Shown here: in pieces, positions 2,780 to 59,767 of the stretch
Layout: every line of letters begins with the position of its first letter
Position numbering within the stretch: position 1 is the stretch's first letter
Source of the DNA: a virus
IMG/VR virus record: IMGVR_UViG_3300045999_002371
Location: 1-64,000 of that record
Length of the DNA: 64,000 nucleotides
Direction: 5' to 3' (one strand)
The notes under the pieces: model-generated
What the model saw: only the letters and a program-made list of their open reading frames with translations
Databases searched by the model: none
What the model was told of the DNA's origin: nothing
Program-made: the position numbers and the translations under genes

Positions 2780-4780
2780 ATGTGTGCCTGTGGTAAATGT
2801 CCGTCATGTAAACGAAATGGAGTAACTGTGAACTATCACGATGCTATTGAAGAGTGGGAACTCGACATACTTGGTGAAACTCGTGAGTCACTACGATCAC
2901 AAGCGATCAAGGCAGAAGAGAAGAAGCAACGACTAGAGAGATTCACACAATTCTTTGGTCGTGTTAATTCTGCATTCACTTTTCGTAAAGTGACTGTGAC
3001 TGTTGAGAACTCGGCTATGGAAGCACCTGCTTGGTCAGGTGCATCAACTGTCACTTTCAACTCTCGTGTTATTGGTGATCTCAACGATGCTAAATCAATC
3101 GCTGGTATCAAGGGTCTTGATCTTCACGAGATCAGTCACATCTTGTACACATCTCGTGAGGGCTCAGAACTCTTCGACTATGTACGAGATAACAATTACT
3201 TCATGGCATACAACGCACTTGAAGATCAGAGAATCGAAACTCTCTTTACGGCTAAGTATCCGTCAACGATCGATTGGTTTACTGCCACGATCTTGATTCA
3301 CTTCGTTGATAACAAAGAGGCTTTCACTAACTCTTATCCGCTATTGCGTGGTCGTAGGTACTTGCCTGTTGATCTAAGAGCGCAATCTCGTAATGCCTAT
3401 CCTGAACAAGATCAGATCGATGAAATCTGTGCAGTAGTCGATGAATACCGCACTCTTCTATTCCCTGCTGATACTGAAAAAGGAAAGGAACTTATTGCGC
3501 GATTTAATGAGTTACTTCCAAAAGGTAATGGCTCAGGCAACGGCTCAGGTAGTGGCGATAGTGGGTCTGTACGCCCTGCTGGTGCTGGTCAAGAAGGTGA
3601 CTGTGTCATTCGTATCAATGACCCATTCGGTCACGGCAAACGACCACAAGAGGGCTTGGAATCGTCTGCTAACTCACGACCTGTTCCACCAAAGAAGCAG
3701 GAAAAAGATCGTGATCGCTCACAACAACTCGACAAAGAAGATGATGCACAACTGGCTGAACAATTAAAATCAAAACCTGTTATCGATGTTGACATCAACG
3801 ACATTGATTTCGATCTTGATTTCGATGATCTTGATTCAGATCAGGATTCAGATCAGGATTCTGATTCAGATCAATCTTCTAATTCTGCTGGTGATTCTGC
3901 TGGCGAGTTAATCGATACATTGATTAGTGATCTATTAGAAAACATTCTTGATTCTAATGAAACTGAAATCAATGACATCTTGCGACAGATTGGTGGTCTG
4001 CCTTCTCTTACTACCAACAATTCAAAAGAGCCTGAGTTAGATTCATTCCGCGACTTAGCCCCTGATGCAAATACCTTTCAAGCATCGTTGTCATTCGGTC
4101 GTGAGTTAGAGCGATTGAGATCGTCATTCGACCCTGCATGGGATAAATACGAATCACAAGGTCGCTTGTCTGCACATCGCTACTTGCGTGGTGATGATCT
4201 CGATACTGTATTCGATCAATGGAATGAAGGTCGTGAAGATGCGACTGAGATCGAATGCGTGATCTTGTTAGACAACTCAGGTTCAATGTCAGGACACAAA
4301 GCCTCTAGTGCGTACAAAGCCATGTACGCAATTAAGAAGGCACTTGATCGCGTTAATGCAAACACAACTGTTATCACTTTCAATGATCGTGCTAACACTT
4401 TGTATCGTGCAACTGATCGTGTCGGTAACACAATTCGTGATGCTGGTACTGGTGGTGGCACAACTGCTGACGGCGCAATTCAGTACGCAACTAAATTGCT
4501 TGCTGAAACTGAAAAGCCTGTACGAATCTTCTTCGCAATTACTGACGGAGAATGGTCGGGCGATCAGAGAGACAATCACGAAACAATCAAGCGCATGGCT
4601 CGTGCTGGTGTGCTTACTGCATTCGCGTACATTCCTGAAAGTACCGAACCTGTTGAACTAAACGCAGAGAAGTCTCACTATTGCGAGATCGCTTCTGTAA
4701 TTCGTAATCCATTCGATCTTGTTTACATGGCGAAATCAATCGTGAAGTACGCGATCTCTCGCCGTCTCGTAAACAACTAA
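2780..4780 (+). CDS. CobT-like VWA protein with HExxH site
   Basis: A 666-residue multidomain protein. The N terminus carries a Cys cluster (C2, C4, C7, C10). A metallopeptidase-like motif HEISH lies at 116-120 with a downstream LEDQRIE (about 147-153) whose Glu could be the third zinc ligand, as in DUF2201/CobT-type proteins. An Asp/Ser/Gln-rich acidic linker spans roughly 330-385. A C-terminal von Willebrand factor A domain has the MIDAS motif DNSGS (498-502) and a later ITDGEW. It starts two bases after the ATPase gene, forming the classical MoxR-VWA pair, presumably a chaperone-like machine that activates or dismantles a target. The target is unknown. Confidence 0.82.
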   Translation: MCACGKCPSCKRNGVTVNYHDAIEEWELDILGETRESLRSQAIKAEEKKQRLERFTQFFGRVNSAFTFRKVTVTVENSAMEAPAWSGASTVTFNSRVIGDLNDAKSIAGIKGLDLHEISHILYTSREGSELFDYVRDNNYFMAYNALEDQRIETLFTAKYPSTIDWFTATILIHFVDNKEAFTNSYPLLRGRRYLPVDLRAQSRNAYPEQDQIDEICAVVDEYRTLLFPADTEKGKELIARFNELLPKGNGSGNGSGSGDSGSVRPAGAGQEGDCVIRINDPFGHGKRPQEGLESSANSRPVPPKKQEKDRDRSQQLDKEDDAQLAEQLKSKPVIDVDINDIDFDLDFDDLDSDQDSDQDSDSDQSSNSAGDSAGELIDTLISDLLENILDSNETEINDILRQIGGLPSLTTNNSKEPELDSFRDLAPDANTFQASLSFGRELERLRSSFDPAWDKYESQGRLSAHRYLRGDDLDTVFDQWNEGREDATEIECVILLDNSGSMSGHKASSAYKAMYAIKKALDRVNANTTVITFNDRANTLYRATDRVGNTIRDAGTGGGTTADGAIQYATKLLAETEKPVRIFFAITDGEWSGDQRDNHETIKRMARAGVLTAFAYIPESTEPVELNAEKSHYCEIASVIRNPFDLVYMAKSIVKYAISRRLVNN

Positions 4781-7056: not shown

Positions 7057-7221
7057 ATGGCTACATACACAATAACTGCCGAAGTAGATCAACAATGGTT
7101 CGACATACTCGGTCAGATAACAAGACACCAAGACGGATTCGTATGGTGTGATGTAACTACAACTGATGATCGTGTATTACGAACTGCATCAGACGGAACT
7201 CAATTCTTAGGAGACAACTAA
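7057..7221 (+). CDS. Hypothetical small protein (54 aa)
   Basis: ATG immediately follows the previous TAA and the stop overlaps the next start (TAATG). Beta-rich composition (MATYTITAEVDQQWFDILG). No motif recognised. Supported by RBS GAGGGAGAAG and exact gene packing. Confidence 0.55.
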   Translation: MATYTITAEVDQQWFDILGQITRHQDGFVWCDVTTTDDRVLRTASDGTQFLGDN

Positions 7222-7385
7222 TGGGATACGCACAGATCATTCGTAGGGTAGAAGCCCACGAACTAACTAATTGCGATGATTGCGGGAATGATGAACTTAC
7301 TTCATCAGGCAGATTCATAACTGATTCAAGCCACCAACCTGTTATTTGGTTCTGCTTTAACTGCATACAGAAAACAACAAGATAG
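7221..7385 (+). CDS. Zinc-ribbon mini-protein (54 aa)
   Basis: Starts in a TAATG overlap. Two Cys pairs, CDDC near residues 18-21 and CFNC near 45-48, form a probable single-zinc ribbon separated by a beta hairpin. It is the last gene before the structured non-coding block. Likely nucleic-acid or protein binding; function unknown. Confidence 0.6.
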   Translation: MGYAQIIRRVEAHELTNCDDCGNDELTSSGRFITDSSHQPVIWFCFNCIQKTTR

Positions 7386-7389
7386 ATTT

Positions 7390-7646
7390 ATCGAGCAGGG
7401 GTCAACATAGGGTTCAATCGGGTTAATTCATTTCCCGACTCCTTACCTATGAAGGGCGATCATGATCGCATTCGATAGTTACGGCGTAGTCGTACCTGCC
7501 CCTGCTTGATTCCACTATTGGTAGAGATCATCGACACCTAGCAGACTACGGCAGACTGAAAAGGTGTTATGAAAATCTTGCAAGATCGTTGATGCACAAA
7601 TAGGTCAACGCACGACATCGTTCTACTTCTCGATGATCTCTACCAA
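7390..7646 (+). ncRNA. Candidate structured RNA with two stem-closed domains
   Basis: This is a 289-base gene-free stretch (7386-7674). Domain 1 is closed by 7390-7401 pairing with 7499-7510 (12 bp, one G-T). Inside it are CATAGG/CCTATG (7406-7411 with 7446-7451), TCGGG/CCCGA (7418-7422 with 7434-7438), the palindrome GCGATCATGATCGC (7456-7469) and TACG/CGTA (7480-7483 with 7491-7494). Domain 2 is closed by 17 perfect pairs (7518-7534 with 7630-7646). It contains CACCT/AGGTG (7535-7539 with 7562-7566), ATCTTGCAAGAT (7575-7586) and CGTTGA/TCAACG (7587-7592 with 7605-7610). The helices nest without conflict, as expected for a folded RNA. It matches no RNA class I recognise; a DNA replication origin is the main alternative. 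Confidence 0.5.
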
Positions 7647-7674
7647 CTATTCAATTACCTAGAGAGGGTTACAC

Positions 7675-7848
7675 ATGGAAACATCACCACTATTTACAGT
7701 AGAAGAAAAGAATCTGATACTCAATGCACGATTCGTACATGGTGAATCGTTGCAGAGCGTTGCTGATCGATTCGGTACAACTCGTAAACTAATTCGTCAA
7801 GTAGAAAGTAATTACATCAAAATAATGAAGGGGGAAATAAATGAGTGA
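7675..7848 (+). CDS. Sigma-70 region-4-like HTH mini-protein (57 aa)
   Basis: ATG with upstream AGAGAGGG. The middle of the protein reads SLQSVADRFGTTRKLIRQVE, which closely follows the helix-turn-helix of sigma-70 region 4 (the usual form is close to leucine-x-x-VA-x-x-FG-x-TR-x-x-IRQ-x-E). Region 4 contacts the -35 promoter element. The protein has no region 2, so it cannot be a full sigma factor; it may compete with or tether the host factor. It lies between the structured block and a WhiB gene, consistent with transcriptional takeover. Confidence 0.6.
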   Translation: METSPLFTVEEKNLILNARFVHGESLQSVADRFGTTRKLIRQVESNYIKIMKGEINE

Positions 7849-8182
7849 ACTATCATCACACCAAACTGATCTCATCAAATCAATCACGATCGCTAACGAG
7901 TTTCTAAAGATCGTTCGTGGATTCAAGGTTGATTCTGATCGCAAAGACAGTCTGCCTCAGGAGATCAAGGAGTATCTAGCCAATGAACACTTGAACTCAA
8001 TCATGGAAGATCAAGAGATCGAACCTGAGATGTTGATTTGGGGATTCCTGCACATGATCGAGATTCTCTTGAAGTATGCAGAGTTAGACCCTGAGGACTT
8101 AACCAATGTCATGGACTCTTTCGTGAAGTATGTGATCGAAAACCCTGACCAATACACAGATCGGAGTAAGAATGAAGATTGA
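7841..8182 (+). CDS. Hypothetical acidic helical protein (113 aa)
   Basis: Overlaps the HTH gene by eight bases, with GAAGGGGGAAATAA as RBS. The protein is acidic and almost wholly helical (FLHMIEILLKYAELDPEDL). No catalytic or metal motif. Its last codons overlap the WhiB start, so the two are probably translationally coupled. Confidence 0.65.
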   Translation: MSELSSHQTDLIKSITIANEFLKIVRGFKVDSDRKDSLPQEIKEYLANEHLNSIMEDQEIEPEMLIWGFLHMIEILLKYAELDPEDLTNVMDSFVKYVIENPDQYTDRSKNED

Positions 8183-8447
8183 GATCATCAACGCACCATG
8201 TCAGTCAGCAGGTATTGACCCTGAACTATTCTTTCCTGACCCGACAGAGTACGAAAAGATTCAGCAAGCAAAATCTGTGTGCGGTCAATGTCCTGAGATC
8301 ACAAAGAATAAATGTCTCTCATTCGCACTAGAGAATGGTGTTCAGTACGGAATCTTCGGCGGTCTAACAGACAAAGAGCGAAACAATTTACGCCGTAGAG
8401 AAAACAGAAAGTACAAGCAGTATGTATCTGTGATTGGAGAGTACTAG
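8172..8447 (+). CDS. WhiB-like [4Fe-4S] regulator
   Basis: A 91-residue WhiB-family protein. Four Cys (C10, C37, C40, C48) fit the iron-sulfur cluster ligands; the FFP motif follows the first Cys, the G-I-F-G-G turn is at about 60-64, and a basic C-terminal tail (ERNNLRRRENRKYK) would touch DNA. WhiB proteins occur essentially only in Actinobacteria and their phages, where they bind the primary sigma factor and alter promoter choice. The last Cys spacing is seven residues rather than the common five. The neighbouring sigma-4-like gene makes a joint role in transcription control likely. Confidence 0.9.
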   Translation: MKIEIINAPCQSAGIDPELFFPDPTEYEKIQQAKSVCGQCPEITKNKCLSFALENGVQYGIFGGLTDKERNNLRRRENRKYKQYVSVIGEY

Positions 8448-10306: not shown

Positions 10307-11569
10307 ATGGCTTATGTCGTAAAGCGTGGAGATAGGTTTACAGGCTATTACCGAAAGGGCGGAAAACGCCTTTCAGCAGGTACATGGGGCTCGGAGATCG
10401 ATGCCATGTATCACGCCTCAAAAGCAGAGGCATCGGGCGTTAGCGAGCCTTCTAGGGCTGTATTTACCCTATCGACCTACATCGATTCATGGTTGCCGAC
10501 CGCCGATCTCATGCCGATCACTCGCAAGGGCTATCGGTCAGTCCTTGATCGCTATGTCCTGCCCACTCTCGGAGATCGCAAAGTAACTTCGATCGATAGA
10601 CGGGCGATTCAAGAGTTACTTCAAGGGCTCAGGGGTCAGGGGATAGGTTCAGCCACCCTGAATCAGATCAAGGCATCGCTAGGGTCTGCCCTCTCCCAGT
10701 TAGTCGATACAGGAGAATTAACTCAGAACCCTACTCATGGGATTCGTATTAAGGCGAAACAGTTAGACATCTCGAATGTCGTAGAGCCCGAAGAGTTTAA
10801 GGCGATCATTCAGCACCTACCGACCGAAGGGGCTCAGTTATTCGCCCGATTCTTAGTCGCATCAGGTTGCCGATTCGGGGAAGCCACCGAGATCAGGGTC
10901 AAAGACATCAACCTAAAGACAGGCGAAGTCTATGTCCAAAGGCGAGTCAGCGATCTAGGGTCAAGCCATACCAGCAGGTTTCTAGTCGTAGAAGCCACAA
11001 AGTCGGGTCATAAGCGAAGCCTTATGTTAAGCAAAGCCTTACTACAAGAGATTCAGGGCTATGTCATAGCAAAAGCCCTATCAAAAGATGACCTGTTGTT
11101 CCCAAGAACGATCATCTTAACAACAGGTAAACTAAAGACTTCTCGTGGAGAAATGTCTAAGCGACCATTCGCCCAAGACGGAAAACTGTTCCAGCATGGA
11201 ACTCTGTACGCCTATACACATGGGCGTTGCCGATGTGAGGCTTGCCGAGAGTCGGTGCGAAAGCACAGGCAAAAGGCAAAGCCATACCAAAAGCGACAGG
11301 GATTCATCGACCATACGAGCCACCTACCACGAGATGTATGGAGAACTACATGGAACAAGGCAATAGCCAAGTCAGGCATCGGGTGGAGTCCTAGAACCCA
11401 TGATCTCAGACACGCTAACGCTACCCAACTTCTAAAAAGTGGGGTAGATGTGCATGAGGTCAAGGAACGCTTAGGACATCAGTCGATAAAGACGACAGAG
11501 CGATACCTACATCGCCTTCGTCACAACCAGTCAAAGGCATCAGAAAGTGTCAATGACTTTTTGGAGTGA
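10307..11569 (+). CDS. int: Tyrosine integrase with inserted Cys motif
   Basis: A 420-residue site-specific recombinase. Residues about 1-50 resemble an arm-binding domain, 53-150 the SAM-like core-binding domain, and 155-410 the catalytic domain. Catalytic residues visible are R189 (SGCRFGE), K232, H365-x2-R368 (HDLRHAN), H391 (LGHQS) and Y400 (TTERYLH). Between the Lys and the second Arg lies an unusual segment (about 297-330) with HGTLYAYTHGRCRC and C313. This resembles the HGT-Y-GCRC-C module found in other actinophage proteins and may bind zinc. The enzyme would integrate and, with the HTH protein at 9558, excise the prophage. ATG with a GGGGGG-type RBS. Confidence 0.9.
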   Translation: MAYVVKRGDRFTGYYRKGGKRLSAGTWGSEIDAMYHASKAEASGVSEPSRAVFTLSTYIDSWLPTADLMPITRKGYRSVLDRYVLPTLGDRKVTSIDRRAIQELLQGLRGQGIGSATLNQIKASLGSALSQLVDTGELTQNPTHGIRIKAKQLDISNVVEPEEFKAIIQHLPTEGAQLFARFLVASGCRFGEATEIRVKDINLKTGEVYVQRRVSDLGSSHTSRFLVVEATKSGHKRSLMLSKALLQEIQGYVIAKALSKDDLLFPRTIILTTGKLKTSRGEMSKRPFAQDGKLFQHGTLYAYTHGRCRCEACRESVRKHRQKAKPYQKRQGFIDHTSHLPRDVWRTTWNKAIAKSGIGWSPRTHDLRHANATQLLKSGVDVHEVKERLGHQSIKTTERYLHRLRHNQSKASESVNDFLE

Positions 11570-11571
11570 TG

Positions 11572-12147
11572 ATGAAACTAACACGAAGAGGCAAGATCGT
11601 ATTCGGATCGCTATTTACGGCGATCTTCGTAGCAAGTGGGGTAGTGGTACTGCCACCAGCCTTCTCGCCTACGAAAGCCGAAGCACAGATCGAGCAGAAG
11701 CAATACCAAAAGCGATACCAAGAGCGAGCCCTAGCCAAGTACGAGAACGCACACAGACTAACTAAGACAGAGTTAGTCAACCTGCTTCACGCAGTTGGCT
11801 TCGAAGGGCAAGCCTTACGCTATGCGTGGGCTATCGCTATGAAGGAATCAAGAGGAAACCCTCTCTCCCACAACGGCAATCGAGAGACAGGGGATAACTC
11901 ATTCGGGTTATTCCAAGTCAACATGATTGATTCATTGGGACAAGATCGTAGGGACAAGTTCAGTTTGGAGTACAACGCCCAACTGTTGAATCCTGTGGTC
12001 AATGCTCAGATTGCTTATCACATGAGCAATCAAGGCAAGAACTGGAGAGCATGGAAAGGTGTCAACAACTCAGTAGTCAAAGAGTGGTTGAAGCAGTTCC
12101 CTGAGTCTCGTGCTAAAGCACTAGCAAAAGGAAAAGCAACAGAGTAA
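11572..12147 (+). CDS. Secreted lysozyme/transglycosylase-like protein
   Basis: Start candidates are GTG 11566, ATG 11569 and ATG 11572; the last is best spaced from GGAG. An N-terminal hydrophobic segment (IVFGSLFTAIFVASGVVVL) then PTKAEA is a signal peptide or anchor. A KQYQKRYQER linker follows. The C-terminal domain holds AWAIAMKESRGNP (likely catalytic Glu) and NSFGLFQVNM, features of lysozyme-like lytic transglycosylases. The same signature recurs in the tape-measure protein (50254-52614), so the domains are related. It may be an endolysin with its own signal or a superinfection or entry factor. It nearly abuts the integrase. Confidence 0.75.
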   Translation: MKLTRRGKIVFGSLFTAIFVASGVVVLPPAFSPTKAEAQIEQKQYQKRYQERALAKYENAHRLTKTELVNLLHAVGFEGQALRYAWAIAMKESRGNPLSHNGNRETGDNSFGLFQVNMIDSLGQDRRDKFSLEYNAQLLNPVVNAQIAYHMSNQGKNWRAWKGVNNSVVKEWLKQFPESRAKALAKGKATE

Positions 12148-12158
12148 GCAATAGGAGA

Positions 12159-12182
12159 AGCCCCGTCAGAAATGGCGGGGCT
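12159..12182 (+). terminator. GC-rich hairpin after the lysozyme-like gene
   Basis: AGCCCCG (12159-12165) pairs with CGGGGCT (12176-12182), extendable by two pairs, around a six-base loop. Only a weak T-run (ATCTT) follows, so termination may be partial. Confidence 0.55.
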
Positions 12183-12192
12183 ATCTTCGAAG

Positions 12193-12220
12193 TAACTCTA
12201 CCTGGCAGCCAGGTGAGTTA
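12193..12220. promoter_or_regulatory. Operator-like dyad before 12239
   Basis: ACCTGGC-A-GCCAGGT (12200-12214) is a perfect palindrome extended on both sides by TAACTC (12193-12198) and GAGTTA (12215-12220), with one unpaired T. It lies 19 bases before the ATG at 12239 and overlaps where a promoter would be. Probably a regulator-binding site; an integrase core site is a less likely alternative. Confidence 0.55.
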
Positions 12221-12238
12221 GTTAGTTAGGGGGCGAAC

Positions 12239-12655
12239 ATGGCAAGTGGCGGTATGCAGGACTGGCAGTCAATGAGCCATAGCAAAGCAAAGCCATACCA
12301 GAAGCCATACCAGAAGCAAGAGCAGTTCCCAAAGGAATACCACAAGGACAAGCAGTGGGTTCAAGACGAACTGCCCTTTACCGATAAGCCTTGGCGTGAG
12401 AGATCTCTTACTGATACTGAAGTAGAAGAACTCTTTTGGCGCGATTTAGTTCAGTTAGGCTGGAAGTTTCAAGCCTATGGAGAGAACCCAAGAAGCAGGA
12501 ACATTGTGTTGCCTTGCCCATACTGTGAGTTAGTTATTGATAGCCACACCATCATCACAGAGTCAAATGCCAAGAAGATGAAAGACAAGTATTACTGCGA
12601 GCAGATCCTTAGAAAGCACAAGGGTCTTGAATGCAAAGCCATACTAGAAGACTAA
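12239..12655 (+). CDS. Hypothetical zinc-binding protein (138 aa)
   Basis: RBS AGGGGG then ATG. The N-terminal 50 residues are low complexity with a tandem KPYQKPYQK. The C-terminal part has an LPCPYCE knuckle followed by two further Cys (YYCEQIL, LECKA), a likely zinc site. The KxYQK element is also found in the two genes upstream. Function unknown. Last plus-strand gene before the convergent terminator. Confidence 0.65.
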   Translation: MASGGMQDWQSMSHSKAKPYQKPYQKQEQFPKEYHKDKQWVQDELPFTDKPWRERSLTDTEVEELFWRDLVQLGWKFQAYGENPRSRNIVLPCPYCELVIDSHTIITESNAKKMKDKYYCEQILRKHKGLECKAILED

Positions 12656-12704
12656 GCAATAGCAAAAGCCCTACCAAAAGGCAGGGCTTCCGCTTTGTAT
12701 TGCT
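12655..12704. terminator. Bidirectional terminator between convergent arms
   Basis: Nested inverted repeats: AGCAATA (12655-12661) with TATTGCT (12698-12704), enclosing AAGCCCT (12666-12672) with AGGGCTT (12683-12689). It lies between two stop codons facing each other and can serve both strands. The outer arm begins in the last base of the 12239-12655 stop codon. Confidence 0.8.
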
Positions 12705-12707
12705 AGA

Positions 12708-14732
12708 TTACTTAGGTTGATTGTCTGTAATTAGTTTTACTTCGCAAGCATCAGTTGTGCAGTAAGCCTCACCAATAGCATCAGCAGCCATTCCTGCATA
12801 GACACCAGAGAAGTCAATAGGGAACAGTTGCATTACGCCCTGCTCTTCGTACTCCTTCTCAGTGATCTGTGTGTATGGCATCTGAGGATAGACATGGTTA
12901 CCACTAGGCAAGAATGAAACAGTCTTAAGTTGACCATCGTACATATGCAAAGCCGTACCAATAGCCGAGGCTTCCTTCTCTGGATCAAATGAGATCGTTA
13001 CAGAGACAGAGTTATCTGACCAATAGCGTTGAGCAGTAGCAGCAAGTGCCATCTTCTCGTAGATACTTACATCCTTCTCACTTCGCTTTGCATCAGACTT
13101 GATAGGGAAGAAGACAACGGAAGTCGTATCAGGAGACTCACTTGCTGGTTCTACTCTGTAGTTAGCAAGTTTGAATAGTGGAAGCATTGGATCGTTGTTT
13201 GAGAAACGAATTGCACGATTGAAGTACTGACCACCTACAGTCCAGTGAACTCCTGGAGATTCTCCAGCAAGGATCGAAACTGTTCCTGATGGCTTAACTG
13301 TTGTCATCTTGATTGACTCACGGATACCAAGCCACTCTGAGTAGTTGGTGTCGTATGACTTGATGACTTTGTAGCCTTCATCCATCCATTGACGCAGGAC
13401 TGGAAGTCCCTTGTTGTCTGCAAAGTTTGCAACACCAGAGACTGATGTACCGATGCGACGATTGCGTTGCATGATTGCGTTGGTCTCTTCCCAGTGAGTT
13501 GGAAGAAGTGTCACAGTCTTTGCGTAGAGATAGGCGAACTTCAATGTGCGCTTGAAATCTTCAAGGTCTGTGTGACGATTGAGATAGGTCTCTACCAATG
13601 TGCAGCACTCGTAGGACTCTAGTGATTGCTCAGCACATGGGTTATACCCTGCAATACGCCAGTCCTTGTTGTTGATTGGATCAGCAAGGCGACCATATTG
13701 CTTGGAGATGTCCATCCAAATAACTCCTGGCTCTCCATTGCGAGCAATACCTTCGATGATCCCATCAAGGTTATCGCCCACGTTGACAGCCACAGAGTTG
13801 TTAGACATCCAGCCATGAGTCATACGCTCTGGATACTTCTCGTAGTTCTTTAGGTTCAAGAACTCTTCATCATCGATGCGACCGATCAATAGTTCTGCAG
13901 AGCGACGGACGTTGCCAGATACAACGCATACACCGATCATGTTGCCGATGTCTGCGATGTCACGACGAGTCAACTTCTGACCAGCACGATCCTTGAATAG
14001 GTCATGGATGTACTGGTGCATCTTGATTAGCGGGTCTGCTCCTGCTGCTGTGCCACCGAAGGTGCGGATTGGTTCGCCTGCTGGACGGATCGCTTCGTAA
14101 TTAAATATTGGAGTCTTCGTATCTGGCTTGAGGTAGGCATTGATGAGGGTGGCTGTTGATTCAACCCAACCCTCTCTGGTGTCTGGGATGTCATAGGCGT
14201 ATTCTCCTTGTGGTGCATAGATGATGAACTCTTTGTCTGCTCCCTTGTCATCAAAGCCCACACCGACTCCGAGCATTGATGCCTCCATGAGGAATGCGAA
14301 AGGCTTTGCTGGATCTGTCTTGACCATCGATCCAGTTGAGACGAAGGCACAGTTCTGCAACGCTGCAGAGTTGCGATGCTCATTGACTAGTGGGGTTCCC
14401 ATAACCCATAGACCTCGTCCAGGTGGTGTCCACTTCAAGTTCCATAAGCGATCGAATGCTTCTTTGGCTGAGGCTGCTGCCTTTGCATCTGACCATGGCA
14501 AACGGTTTGTCTTTGCGTGATCCTTCTGTAATGAGTACATGCCGTTGATGACTCGTTCACATACATCAACCCATGTCTCCTTCGTACCATCTGCCTTGAG
14601 GCGAGAATAGGTACGCAAGAAAGTAATCTCTCCCACTGAGTTGCCCGCTGCATCTTGATAACCGAACGGCGCTTTCTTTGAGCGATACGGTCCAATGAAA
14701 TCCTCAGTCAGTTTGAAAGATAATGTTGTCAT
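12708..14732 (-). CDS. nrdJ: B12-dependent ribonucleoside-triphosphate reductase
   Basis: Class II (adenosylcobalamin) monomeric reductase that makes dNTPs. The frame opens at 14744, but ATG at 14732 (MTTLSFKLTEDF) follows AGGGGT and is preferred. Residue numbers below count from the upstream ATG: C132 (LQNCAF) and C381 fit the active-site redox pair; C370 in NPCAEQ fits the thiyl-radical Cys with E372 two residues on; PSGTVSILAGESP is conserved; the tail AYCTTDACE has two Cys five apart, the shuttle pair seen in the Lactobacillus enzyme. Spacing 370/372/381 equals that enzyme's 408/410/419. No host subunit is needed. Last gene of the minus-strand arm. Confidence 0.93.
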   Translation of the reverse strand: MTTLSFKLTEDFIGPYRSKKAPFGYQDAAGNSVGEITFLRTYSRLKADGTKETWVDVCERVINGMYSLQKDHAKTNRLPWSDAKAAASAKEAFDRLWNLKWTPPGRGLWVMGTPLVNEHRNSAALQNCAFVSTGSMVKTDPAKPFAFLMEASMLGVGVGFDDKGADKEFIIYAPQGEYAYDIPDTREGWVESTATLINAYLKPDTKTPIFNYEAIRPAGEPIRTFGGTAAGADPLIKMHQYIHDLFKDRAGQKLTRRDIADIGNMIGVCVVSGNVRRSAELLIGRIDDEEFLNLKNYEKYPERMTHGWMSNNSVAVNVGDNLDGIIEGIARNGEPGVIWMDISKQYGRLADPINNKDWRIAGYNPCAEQSLESYECCTLVETYLNRHTDLEDFKRTLKFAYLYAKTVTLLPTHWEETNAIMQRNRRIGTSVSGVANFADNKGLPVLRQWMDEGYKVIKSYDTNYSEWLGIRESIKMTTVKPSGTVSILAGESPGVHWTVGGQYFNRAIRFSNNDPMLPLFKLANYRVEPASESPDTTSVVFFPIKSDAKRSEKDVSIYEKMALAATAQRYWSDNSVSVTISFDPEKEASAIGTALHMYDGQLKTVSFLPSGNHVYPQMPYTQITEKEYEEQGVMQLFPIDFSGVYAGMAADAIGEAYCTTDACEVKLITDNQPK

Positions 14733-26508: not shown

Positions 26509-26849
26509 TAGTAATCCTTATCTATACTGAAAATAAACTCTTCTAGGGTCTGTGTGGTCTTCTTAGTCTTCTTTAGTTTTTGCCACTTTCGCATTAGGGC
26601 GTTTCGTTCTCGGTGGCTGAGTCCTCCCCAAATTCCATGAGGCTCGTCTCGTCGGACTGCATCCCATAAACACTCTGCTCGTACTGGACAAGGGTTCTTT
26701 CCTGTTTCACCAAAACAAAATGATTTGGCTTTGTTAGCGATCTCTTTGTACTGCTCCTTGTCACGAGGAGGGTAGAAGATATCTGTGTCTTGGCCTGAGC
26801 ATCGTGCTTTGTATCTCCATGCGTACTCTGGTTCATCAAAGTCTTCCAT
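26508..26849 (-). CDS. Second WhiB-like protein, altered Cys spacing
   Basis: 113 residues. WhiB features: C17 (ARCSGQDTDIFYPP), C45, C54 and C60 (NPCPVRAECLWDA) and the GIWGG turn with SHRERNAL. The usual C-x2-C is replaced by C45-x8-C54, an insertion of six residues in the cluster loop. It sits among recombination genes rather than with the left-arm regulators. Likely binds the host sigma factor; the changed loop could alter cluster chemistry. Confidence 0.88.
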   Translation of the reverse strand: MEDFDEPEYAWRYKARCSGQDTDIFYPPRDKEQYKEIANKAKSFCFGETGKNPCPVRAECLWDAVRRDEPHGIWGGLSHRERNALMRKWQKLKKTKKTTQTLEEFIFSIDKDY

Positions 26850-58540: not shown

Positions 58541-59767
58541 CTAGCCTAAGAACACCACTGCAGACAACCAAGCAGAAGCCTCATGTGGAATAACTCCTCC
58601 ACTAGTGCCGATGGTTATGTACGAAGCATCAGATGTTCCATATTTCTGCACTAACACCACATGATCTACTGACGGTCTGTAACCTGTAGGTAGAGTAAAA
58701 GCCACAGTCTCACCTGTTCCTCCACTTACGTTTCCACGTAAGAACACTACGTCGTTTAATTTACGGTAGGCAACATTGTTTCCAACAAAACTATTATCAA
58801 AAGAATTTACTGAAACCCAACCACTGTCAGATACGGCAGCCTCAGCACCCTGAACCCCCTGTGTACCTTGTGTCCCTGTAGTTCCTTGGGCGCCATCTGT
58901 ACCTTGTGTGCCTTGAGTTCCCTCTCCAGTTGCTCCTTGGGTTCCTTCAGCGCCTTGAGAACCGCTTGTACCCTGCGTACCTTCTGTACCCTGAGTACCA
59001 GCGCCCGTTGCTCCTTGAGAACCAACTGCACCCTGTGTTCCAAGTGTTCCTTGAGCACCATTTGCTCCTTGTGTACCTTGAGTTCCTGCACCAGTTGCTC
59101 CTTGAGTACCAAGTGTTCCTTGAGAACCAGTGGCTCCTTGAACTCCTTGAACAGAAGCGCCCTGAGTACCTTGAGTTCCTTGAGCCTGTGCAAATCCTGC
59201 ACCAGCAGTTCCTTGCGTTCCTTGCACACCACGGTTTCCTTGTACGCCTTGAGTTCCCTGTGCTCCTACATCTCCGTCTACACCTTTTGTACCTTGTGAG
59301 CCTTGTGTGCCTTGGGCTCCAAGACGCCCCTGTGCTCCTTGTGCTCCTTCAGTACCACGAGAACCTTGCACACCTTGAGTACCTTGAGCACCATCTACCG
59401 CAGCAGTCCCTTGTGCACCACGAGTTCCTTGTGCACCACTTGATCCTGCTGAACCTTGAACACCTTGCGAACCGCGAGTTCCTTGTGTACCTTGCGTTCC
59501 GTTATCGCCATCAACACCTTGTGCACCAGCACGACCCTGCACACCTTGCGTGCCGTTAGTTCCGTTAGAGCCACCAGTACCTTGGGCACCAGTTGCACCA
59601 CGAGATCCTTGAACTCCAGTACGACCCTGTACGCCCTGCGTGCCTTGTGATCCTTCAAGACCGTCATTGGTCTCGATGCTCTGAACACGGCTGTTGAGAT
59701 CTTGTAGAGATGCATTGAGAGTTGTATCCCAATTTGCTTGGCCCCTAGTAGGTAGAGTGAATGTCAT
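58541..59767 (-). CDS. Collagen-like tail fibre protein (408 aa)
   Basis: Residues about 42-310 are Gly-x-y triplets dominated by GTQ, GVQ, GAQ and GSQ, which would form a collagen-like triple helix. Proline is almost absent and Gln/Thr/Ala take its place. The N terminus (MTFTLPTRGQANWDTTLNAS) is the usual phage fibre anchor; the C-terminal ~90 residues (SGWVSVNSFDNSF to LSAVVFLG) are a beta-rich tip. Long plus-strand frames opposite the repeat are shadows. Confidence 0.85.
   Translation of the reverse strand: MTFTLPTRGQANWDTTLNASLQDLNSRVQSIETNDGLEGSQGTQGVQGRTGVQGSRGATGAQGTGGSNGTNGTQGVQGRAGAQGVDGDNGTQGTQGTRGSQGVQGSAGSSGAQGTRGAQGTAAVDGAQGTQGVQGSRGTEGAQGAQGRLGAQGTQGSQGTKGVDGDVGAQGTQGVQGNRGVQGTQGTAGAGFAQAQGTQGTQGASVQGVQGATGSQGTLGTQGATGAGTQGTQGANGAQGTLGTQGAVGSQGATGAGTQGTEGTQGTSGSQGAEGTQGATGEGTQGTQGTDGAQGTTGTQGTQGVQGAEAAVSDSGWVSVNSFDNSFVGNNVAYRKLNDVVFLRGNVSGGTGETVAFTLPTGYRPSVDHVVLVQKYGTSDASYITIGTSGGVIPHEASAWLSAVVFLG

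Follow-up and report, generated by a model that had tools for sequence, protein, structure and literature searches.

A structured RNA in a phage early operon, founder of a new RNA family in actinobacterial-type phages

The locus and its two RNA domains

The window, a stretch of 64,000 nucleotides (positions 1 to 64,000 of IMG/VR virus record IMGVR_UViG_3300045999_002371), carries a tightly packed operon in which two small genes (7221-7385 and 7675-7848) are separated by 289 bases, 7386-7674, without a credible gene (Table 1). A preliminary description had already called this gap gene-free and described it as a structured non-coding element. Supporting this, the gap folded as RNA reaches -93.8 kcal/mol compared with -69.1 +/- 4.7 in dinucleotide shuffles, none of which, in 200, folds as well (z -5.26), and its two domains are each significant separately (z -4.8 for domain I and -5.2 for domain II). 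Both closing helices, 7390-7401 with 7499-7510 and 7518-7534 with 7630-7646, lie exactly where they had been placed, and comparison extends the first by the U.G pair 7402/7498. The nested palindromes fared unequally: that at 7575-7586 survives in domain II, where it forms helix 4, whereas that at 7456-7469 is contradicted by the pairing of P4. The latter hairpin belongs to the single-sequence minimum-energy fold, which was misled by the palindrome; in the comparative structure 7453-7460 pairs with 7489-7497.

Table 1. Genes and RNA elements at and around the gap, in window coordinates.
Feature	Position	Strand	Remark
Upstream gene, 54 aa, zinc-ribbon-like	7221..7385	+	stop codon ends 4 nt before P1
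Domain I, three-way junction (P1, P2/P3, P4/P5)	7390..7510	+	comparative structure
P1 5' strand, 13 bp	7390..7402	+	partner 7498-7510; innermost pair U7402.G7498 invariant
Junction strand YAA (CAA here)	7403..7405	+	last two bases nearly invariant
P2 arm	7406..7451	+	7406-7411 pairs with 7446-7451
P2 apical hairpin	7418-7422/7434-7438	+	varies between members
P4 5' strand (AGG-GCGAU)	7453..7460	+	partners 7489-7493 and 7495-7497; A7494 bulged
Conserved asymmetric internal loop CAUGA/UA enclosing P5	7461..7488 (loop strands 7461-7465, 7487-7488)	+	alignment
P5, variable hairpin	7467-7469/7484-7486	+	enclosed by CAUGA/UA loop
P1 3' strand	7498..7510	+	partner 7390-7402
Domain II, a further conserved RNA that this phage group carries as an optional module	7514..7650	+	alignment A5, 9 members
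Domain II closing helix, 17 bp	7518-7534/7630-7646	+	fully (100%) paired across the 9 sequences; compensatory change in 6 pairs
Domain II inner helix	7558-7560/7621-7623	+	A5
Domain II inner helix	7563-7568/7614-7619	+	A5
Domain II helix 4 (palindrome 7575-7586)	7575-7578/7583-7586	+	A5
Domain II inner helix	7587-7593/7604-7610	+	A5
Downstream gene, 57 aa, sigma-70 region-4-like HTH	7675..7848	+	just under Pfam cut-off; missing or replaced in relatives
WhiB gene, same operon, context only	8172..8447	+	Pfam PF02467, E 9e-18

The earlier impression that no known RNA class is represented here also holds. A gathering scan of the window against the 4,227 families of Rfam 15, among them riboswitches, ribozymes, tRNA, tmRNA, GOLLD and ROOL, returned 0 matches, a tRNA was looked for in the gap and none was found, and a scan of the window at E<=10 gave only chance matches far below the cut-offs. 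Scans of relatives gave only a tRNA elsewhere and chance matches.

The core conserved across the domain I family reads GU-YAA ... GAAGG-RCRNU-CAYGA ... A-GNCGU-A-CCUGC, and the window has P1, P2, P4 and P5 with covariation together with GU-YAA...GAAGG...CAYGA...UACCUGC. Members are 90-142 nt long and close with a P1 of 11-13 bp that ends sharply (pairing is 72% at position 12, 56% at 13 and 26% at 14). Invariant or near-invariant bases cluster at the junction and at the asymmetric loop CAYGA/NA between P4 and P5, as they might in an RNA presenting a binding surface. This loop resembles a kink-turn (3-nt bulge plus tandem sheared G-A pairs), with the second sheared pair not conserved. Mimicry of the 16S rRNA 3' end (GUAGCCGUACC, CUCCUU) was rejected, since those letters vary while their pairing is kept.

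The two domains had been taken for one element, a view that does not survive comparison, as most relatives carry domain I without domain II. Domain II occurs only behind domain I, at the same place, in this phage group and is absent from close relatives; model R2 detected no tenth member in 68 sources. Across the nine members of A5, 14 of 40 pairs are doubly changed and 96% of cells are paired. Filled sites have imperfect flank repeats. Inverted repeats are present, as is what may be a 9-bp duplication in decay. An ordinary mobile or transposable element was nevertheless rejected, because all nine copies sit at one site. Domain II looks like a second RNA that is optional and is acquired or lost whole.

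Elsewhere in the window, a second WhiB gene lies at 26595-26819 on the minus strand. Near the left end, an inverted repeat at 518-592 (arms of 27 bases, 89%; centre TGATCGATCA) may be an operator or a further RNA hairpin. At 11055-12965, in and around a lysozyme-like gene, AAGCCATACCAAAAGC-like repeats of 22 bases are dispersed, encoding KPYQK peptides in places and lying outside the gene elsewhere. A long array of 9-base-stepped repeats (GTxCCTTGxGxxCC) at 58836-59619 is probably a minus-strand coding region for a collagen-like Gly-X-Y protein.

Distribution and covariation of domain I

An exact-word scan identified a single contig, L060, that carries the two domains in the corresponding position; its P1 is rewritten from TCGAGCAGGGG/CCCCTGCTTGA in the window to TTAGGTGAGGG/CCCTCACCTAA. 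Searches with neighbouring genes and a nucleotide profile recovered domain I from nearly all relatives and domain II from only nine distinct ones. A pattern of the domain I core reached phages without other similarity, up to 72% GC, and later patterns raised the number of distinct sequences to about 80, from unrelated actinobacterial-type phages (37-72% GC). Model R1 matches the window, which is in its training set, at 7390-7511 (81.6 bits, E 7e-17), and had no match in decoy loci or, with default filters, in the whole D29 genome. BLAST matches in Sebastisaurus and Vendetta were discarded as lying inside genes with no model match. A pattern scan of a genome collection gave no true matches, but its pattern excluded the common CTGCG form and the scan is therefore uninformative on prophages in bacterial genomes.

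Whole-record searches found one copy of domain I in 52 of 53 matching records and two in the other. This 98.9-kb phage carries two divergent domain I RNAs on opposite strands (L319:1909-2013, minus; L320:1882-1984, plus), and the L319 copy lies within about 1 kb where no genes are called, with a very strong hairpin immediately after it.

Alignment A4 comprises 33 domain I sequences and 31 proposed pairs, 23 of which are changed on both sides. Its cells are paired in 89.6% of cases versus 67.9% in shuffles, 250 are doubly changed versus 88, and the covariation score is 0.602, compared with 0.201 for shuffles and at most 0.145 for slid structures, in which partners are displaced. A blind RNAalifold run recovers P1, P2 and P4. 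The pattern is repeated in 16 held-out members (0.616 versus 0.161), whose alignment was fitted to the model and whose own letters were not used in building it; P4 is 100% paired in the 33 A4 sequences and in 16 of 16 held-out members. In relatives, many compensatory changes were found in both of the closing helices first proposed, so that on this point the preliminary description withstands the refutation it had set for itself. Domain I pairs are G-U in 127 cells versus A-C in 23 (64 versus 23 without the two near-invariant U.G columns), and the plus strand is therefore the structured one.

By every test available, domain I is the founding member of a new RNA family. Literature searches of open papers gave no description of it, and none was found in annotation either. 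The novelty lies in the RNA family itself; how it acts may turn out to be of a familiar type.

Genomic surroundings and the Cluster K mycobacteriophages

The contexts of domain I differ: the HTH/WhiB early operon here, a place between the maturation protease gene and the scaffold or capsid genes, a position before HNH/terminase genes, or one beside DnaB, RecT/RuvC or SSB-like genes (gene calls in the high-GC contigs being heuristic). Even among close relatives the gene that follows may be the HTH, a 110-aa protein, an inserted gene, or else domain II intervenes. In most members, the window included, domain I starts 4-12 nt past a stop codon, without room for a promoter of its own, and in about 17 a start codon with a Shine-Dalgarno sequence follows within 30 nt (17-29 nt after P1). 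Other members sit in gaps of hundreds of bases, and for L319 and L321 no same-strand upstream ORF was called within some 400 nt. Among 36 members without a close start codon, nine have a strong hairpin directly 3' where about two are expected; some of these members are related, and the excess is limited. Domain I has the orientation of its operon in nearly all cases with clear neighbours.

Several individual loci are unusual. In L203 and L292 an ORF can be read through the RNA (e.g. ...AEKDAHEA...), probably by chance, though the core might be both coding and structural. The large terminase gene of L204 (reverse strand, element at 3098-3191) is in two pieces, in the order ATPase part, Acb2-like gene (PF24729, E 6e-16), domain I RNA, nuclease part; an Acb2-like gene also lies upstream of the RNA in L210.

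BLAST with one member gave a match in an unannotated gap of Mycobacterium phage Curiosium, and this proved to be a member that has diverged (E 3.5e-8 and 37 bits in an unfiltered search). Its P1 is intact, and P4 changes from AGG/CCU to AGC/GCU, so that a G-C pair becomes C-G in the Cluster K P4. With Curiosium as query, 194 mycobacteriophage records match, 122 of them at a cover of at least 80% and the rest mostly in the downstream hairpin alone. The divergent form lies between genes in Cluster K phages including Adephagia, CrimD and Anaya, and R1 scores it at 38-44 bits in Adephagia, CrimD, Validus and Chris. A quick first-pass genome search misses this form, and absence in other named phages is not proved by such a search.

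Within Cluster K, domain I is cleanly present or absent, its site being bounded by a stop codon on one side and by a fixed hairpin on the other. TM4, ShedlockHolmes, Amelie and Yuna (L312, L313, L314 and L315) have the same neighbourhood and downstream hairpin without the RNA, and provide a natural empty site. A conserved CCCCCGC...GCGGGGG hairpin and an SAS-like box persist where a Cluster K early operon is missing the RNA; in Curiosium, Adephagia and CrimD the SAS-like box (GGGATAGGAGCCA) is downstream of the RNA.

Possible action of domain I and likeness to known RNAs

Phages normally carry a single domain I, in operons of very different kinds, and gain or lose it whole. The varied neighbours, together with the lone copy in 52 of 53 records, speak against an origin and against control of any one particular gene. 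What favours a small trans-acting RNA, made alone or from operon transcripts, is that copies are single, that the operons they lie in are arbitrary, that the ends are sealed and that terminator-like hairpins follow where space allows; I judge the chances of this reading evenly balanced. Domain I would be transcribed with the operon, or by itself where a longer gap ends in a terminator-like hairpin; P1 would seal its ends to give a stable RNA, which would act in trans by binding a conserved host component. Domain II is a second structured RNA, less common, that is inserted immediately behind domain I in certain relatives of this phage. The occurrence of domain I in very different phages suggests a common host target. 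More tentatively, it may represent a new class of phage RNA acting in trans on a conserved actinobacterial target, such as an RNase, a defence protein, RNA polymerase or the ribosome, and common to otherwise unrelated phages, from freshwater groups to mycobacteriophages. The regulatory RNA suggested in the preliminary description is plausible.

A stop codon 4-12 nt upstream and, in about 17 members, a start codon within 30 nt also fit a cis-acting operon element, the main rival to action in trans. Like HK022 put, EAR and Tn916 canT, such a nascent RNA would bind RNA polymerase so that terminators or pauses downstream are ignored, a mechanism for which single RNA antiterminators provide precedent (PMC11658703, PMC9378689). 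The shared direction of RNA and operon speaks for it, as does location: several phages have the RNA where the late operon starts, on the HNH-terminase side (L220, L223, L252, L255, L256), and in Cluster K early operons it comes just before the conserved hairpin. The sole two-copy phage has its copies on opposite strands, like putL and putR. I nonetheless find this mechanism rather doubtful: the RNA may stand at the start or in the middle of an operon, and in early or late ones, without regularity; one copy is all that several phages have despite long operons; the hairpin persists in TM4 and others where the RNA is missing; L229 has a convergent gene immediately after domain I; and the architecture is unlike put. 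A riboswitch or protein-binding leader controlling the next gene would account for the compact conserved core and for those members in which a ribosome site and start codon closely follow P1. It is improbable, however, given that the next gene differs among close relatives and across phages, that distances reach several hundred nt, and that alternative pairing to the ribosome site was not seen; as the leader of one particular gene, domain I can be dismissed, its neighbours being too varied. Nor is the partnership once suggested with the sigma-4-like and WhiB genes supported, as the downstream gene varies even within the closest group and is altogether different in other phages.

With its tips variable, its placement sporadic and conserved bases close to a three-way junction, domain I would suit a small self-cleaving ribozyme processing phage transcripts, but no Rfam ribozyme model matches and a ribozyme would have no need of a closing stem fixed at 11-13 bp; I consider this more improbable still. 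Least probable of all is a structure acting as DNA (an origin, packaging or recombination site). Its helices are palindromic and its presence or absence is cassette-like, but G-U is kept and A-C avoided on one strand, and position is not fixed relative to replication or packaging genes. A replication origin had also been offered in the preliminary description. GC skew has no switch at 7.4 kb, its cumulative peak falling at 12-14 kb where gene direction changes, and the site has no repeat family or iterons, while G-U is kept far above A-C on this strand; for want of a skew signal, rolling-circle and theta origins were rejected.

The proposed small trans-acting RNA belongs to a well-supported family of about 80 distinct phage sequences and more than 100 named mycobacteriophage records. 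Adephagia and CrimD have the RNA where TM4, Amelie and ShedlockHolmes naturally lack it, a contrast that makes a test of function straightforward in M. smegmatis.

Among known RNAs, GOLLD and ROOL are several hundred nt long and have their own Rfam models; like domain I they are structured, phage- or prophage-associated and of unclear function, and domain I has no Rfam match to either. The Cluster A small RNAs (the right-end RNA of D29, L5 and StarStuff, and the D29 63-64 intergenic RNA) are abundant, non-coding and of unknown function (PMC5712189). They share with domain I a non-coding, intergenic place in actinophages, but R1 has no match in D29, and identity with the 63-64 RNA was rejected on this ground. 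In Cluster K, the SAS, 13 bp and present in 11-19 copies per genome, is another conserved non-coding feature, as is the ESAS, and domain I lies upstream of the SAS-like box; the portion of the Cluster K genome paper drawn on here does not mention the RNA (PMC3203893). The HK022 put RNA, two stem-loops in about 70 nt, occurs twice per genome close to early promoters (PMC9378689), an anatomy that was looked for in domain I and not found. Unlike put, domain I is a three-way junction of 90-142 nt, one per genome and anywhere in the operon. It nevertheless resembles put, EAR and canT as a short structured RNA lying co-directionally in operons of phages or mobile elements, whose action, if any, would proceed without a dedicated phage protein adjoining.
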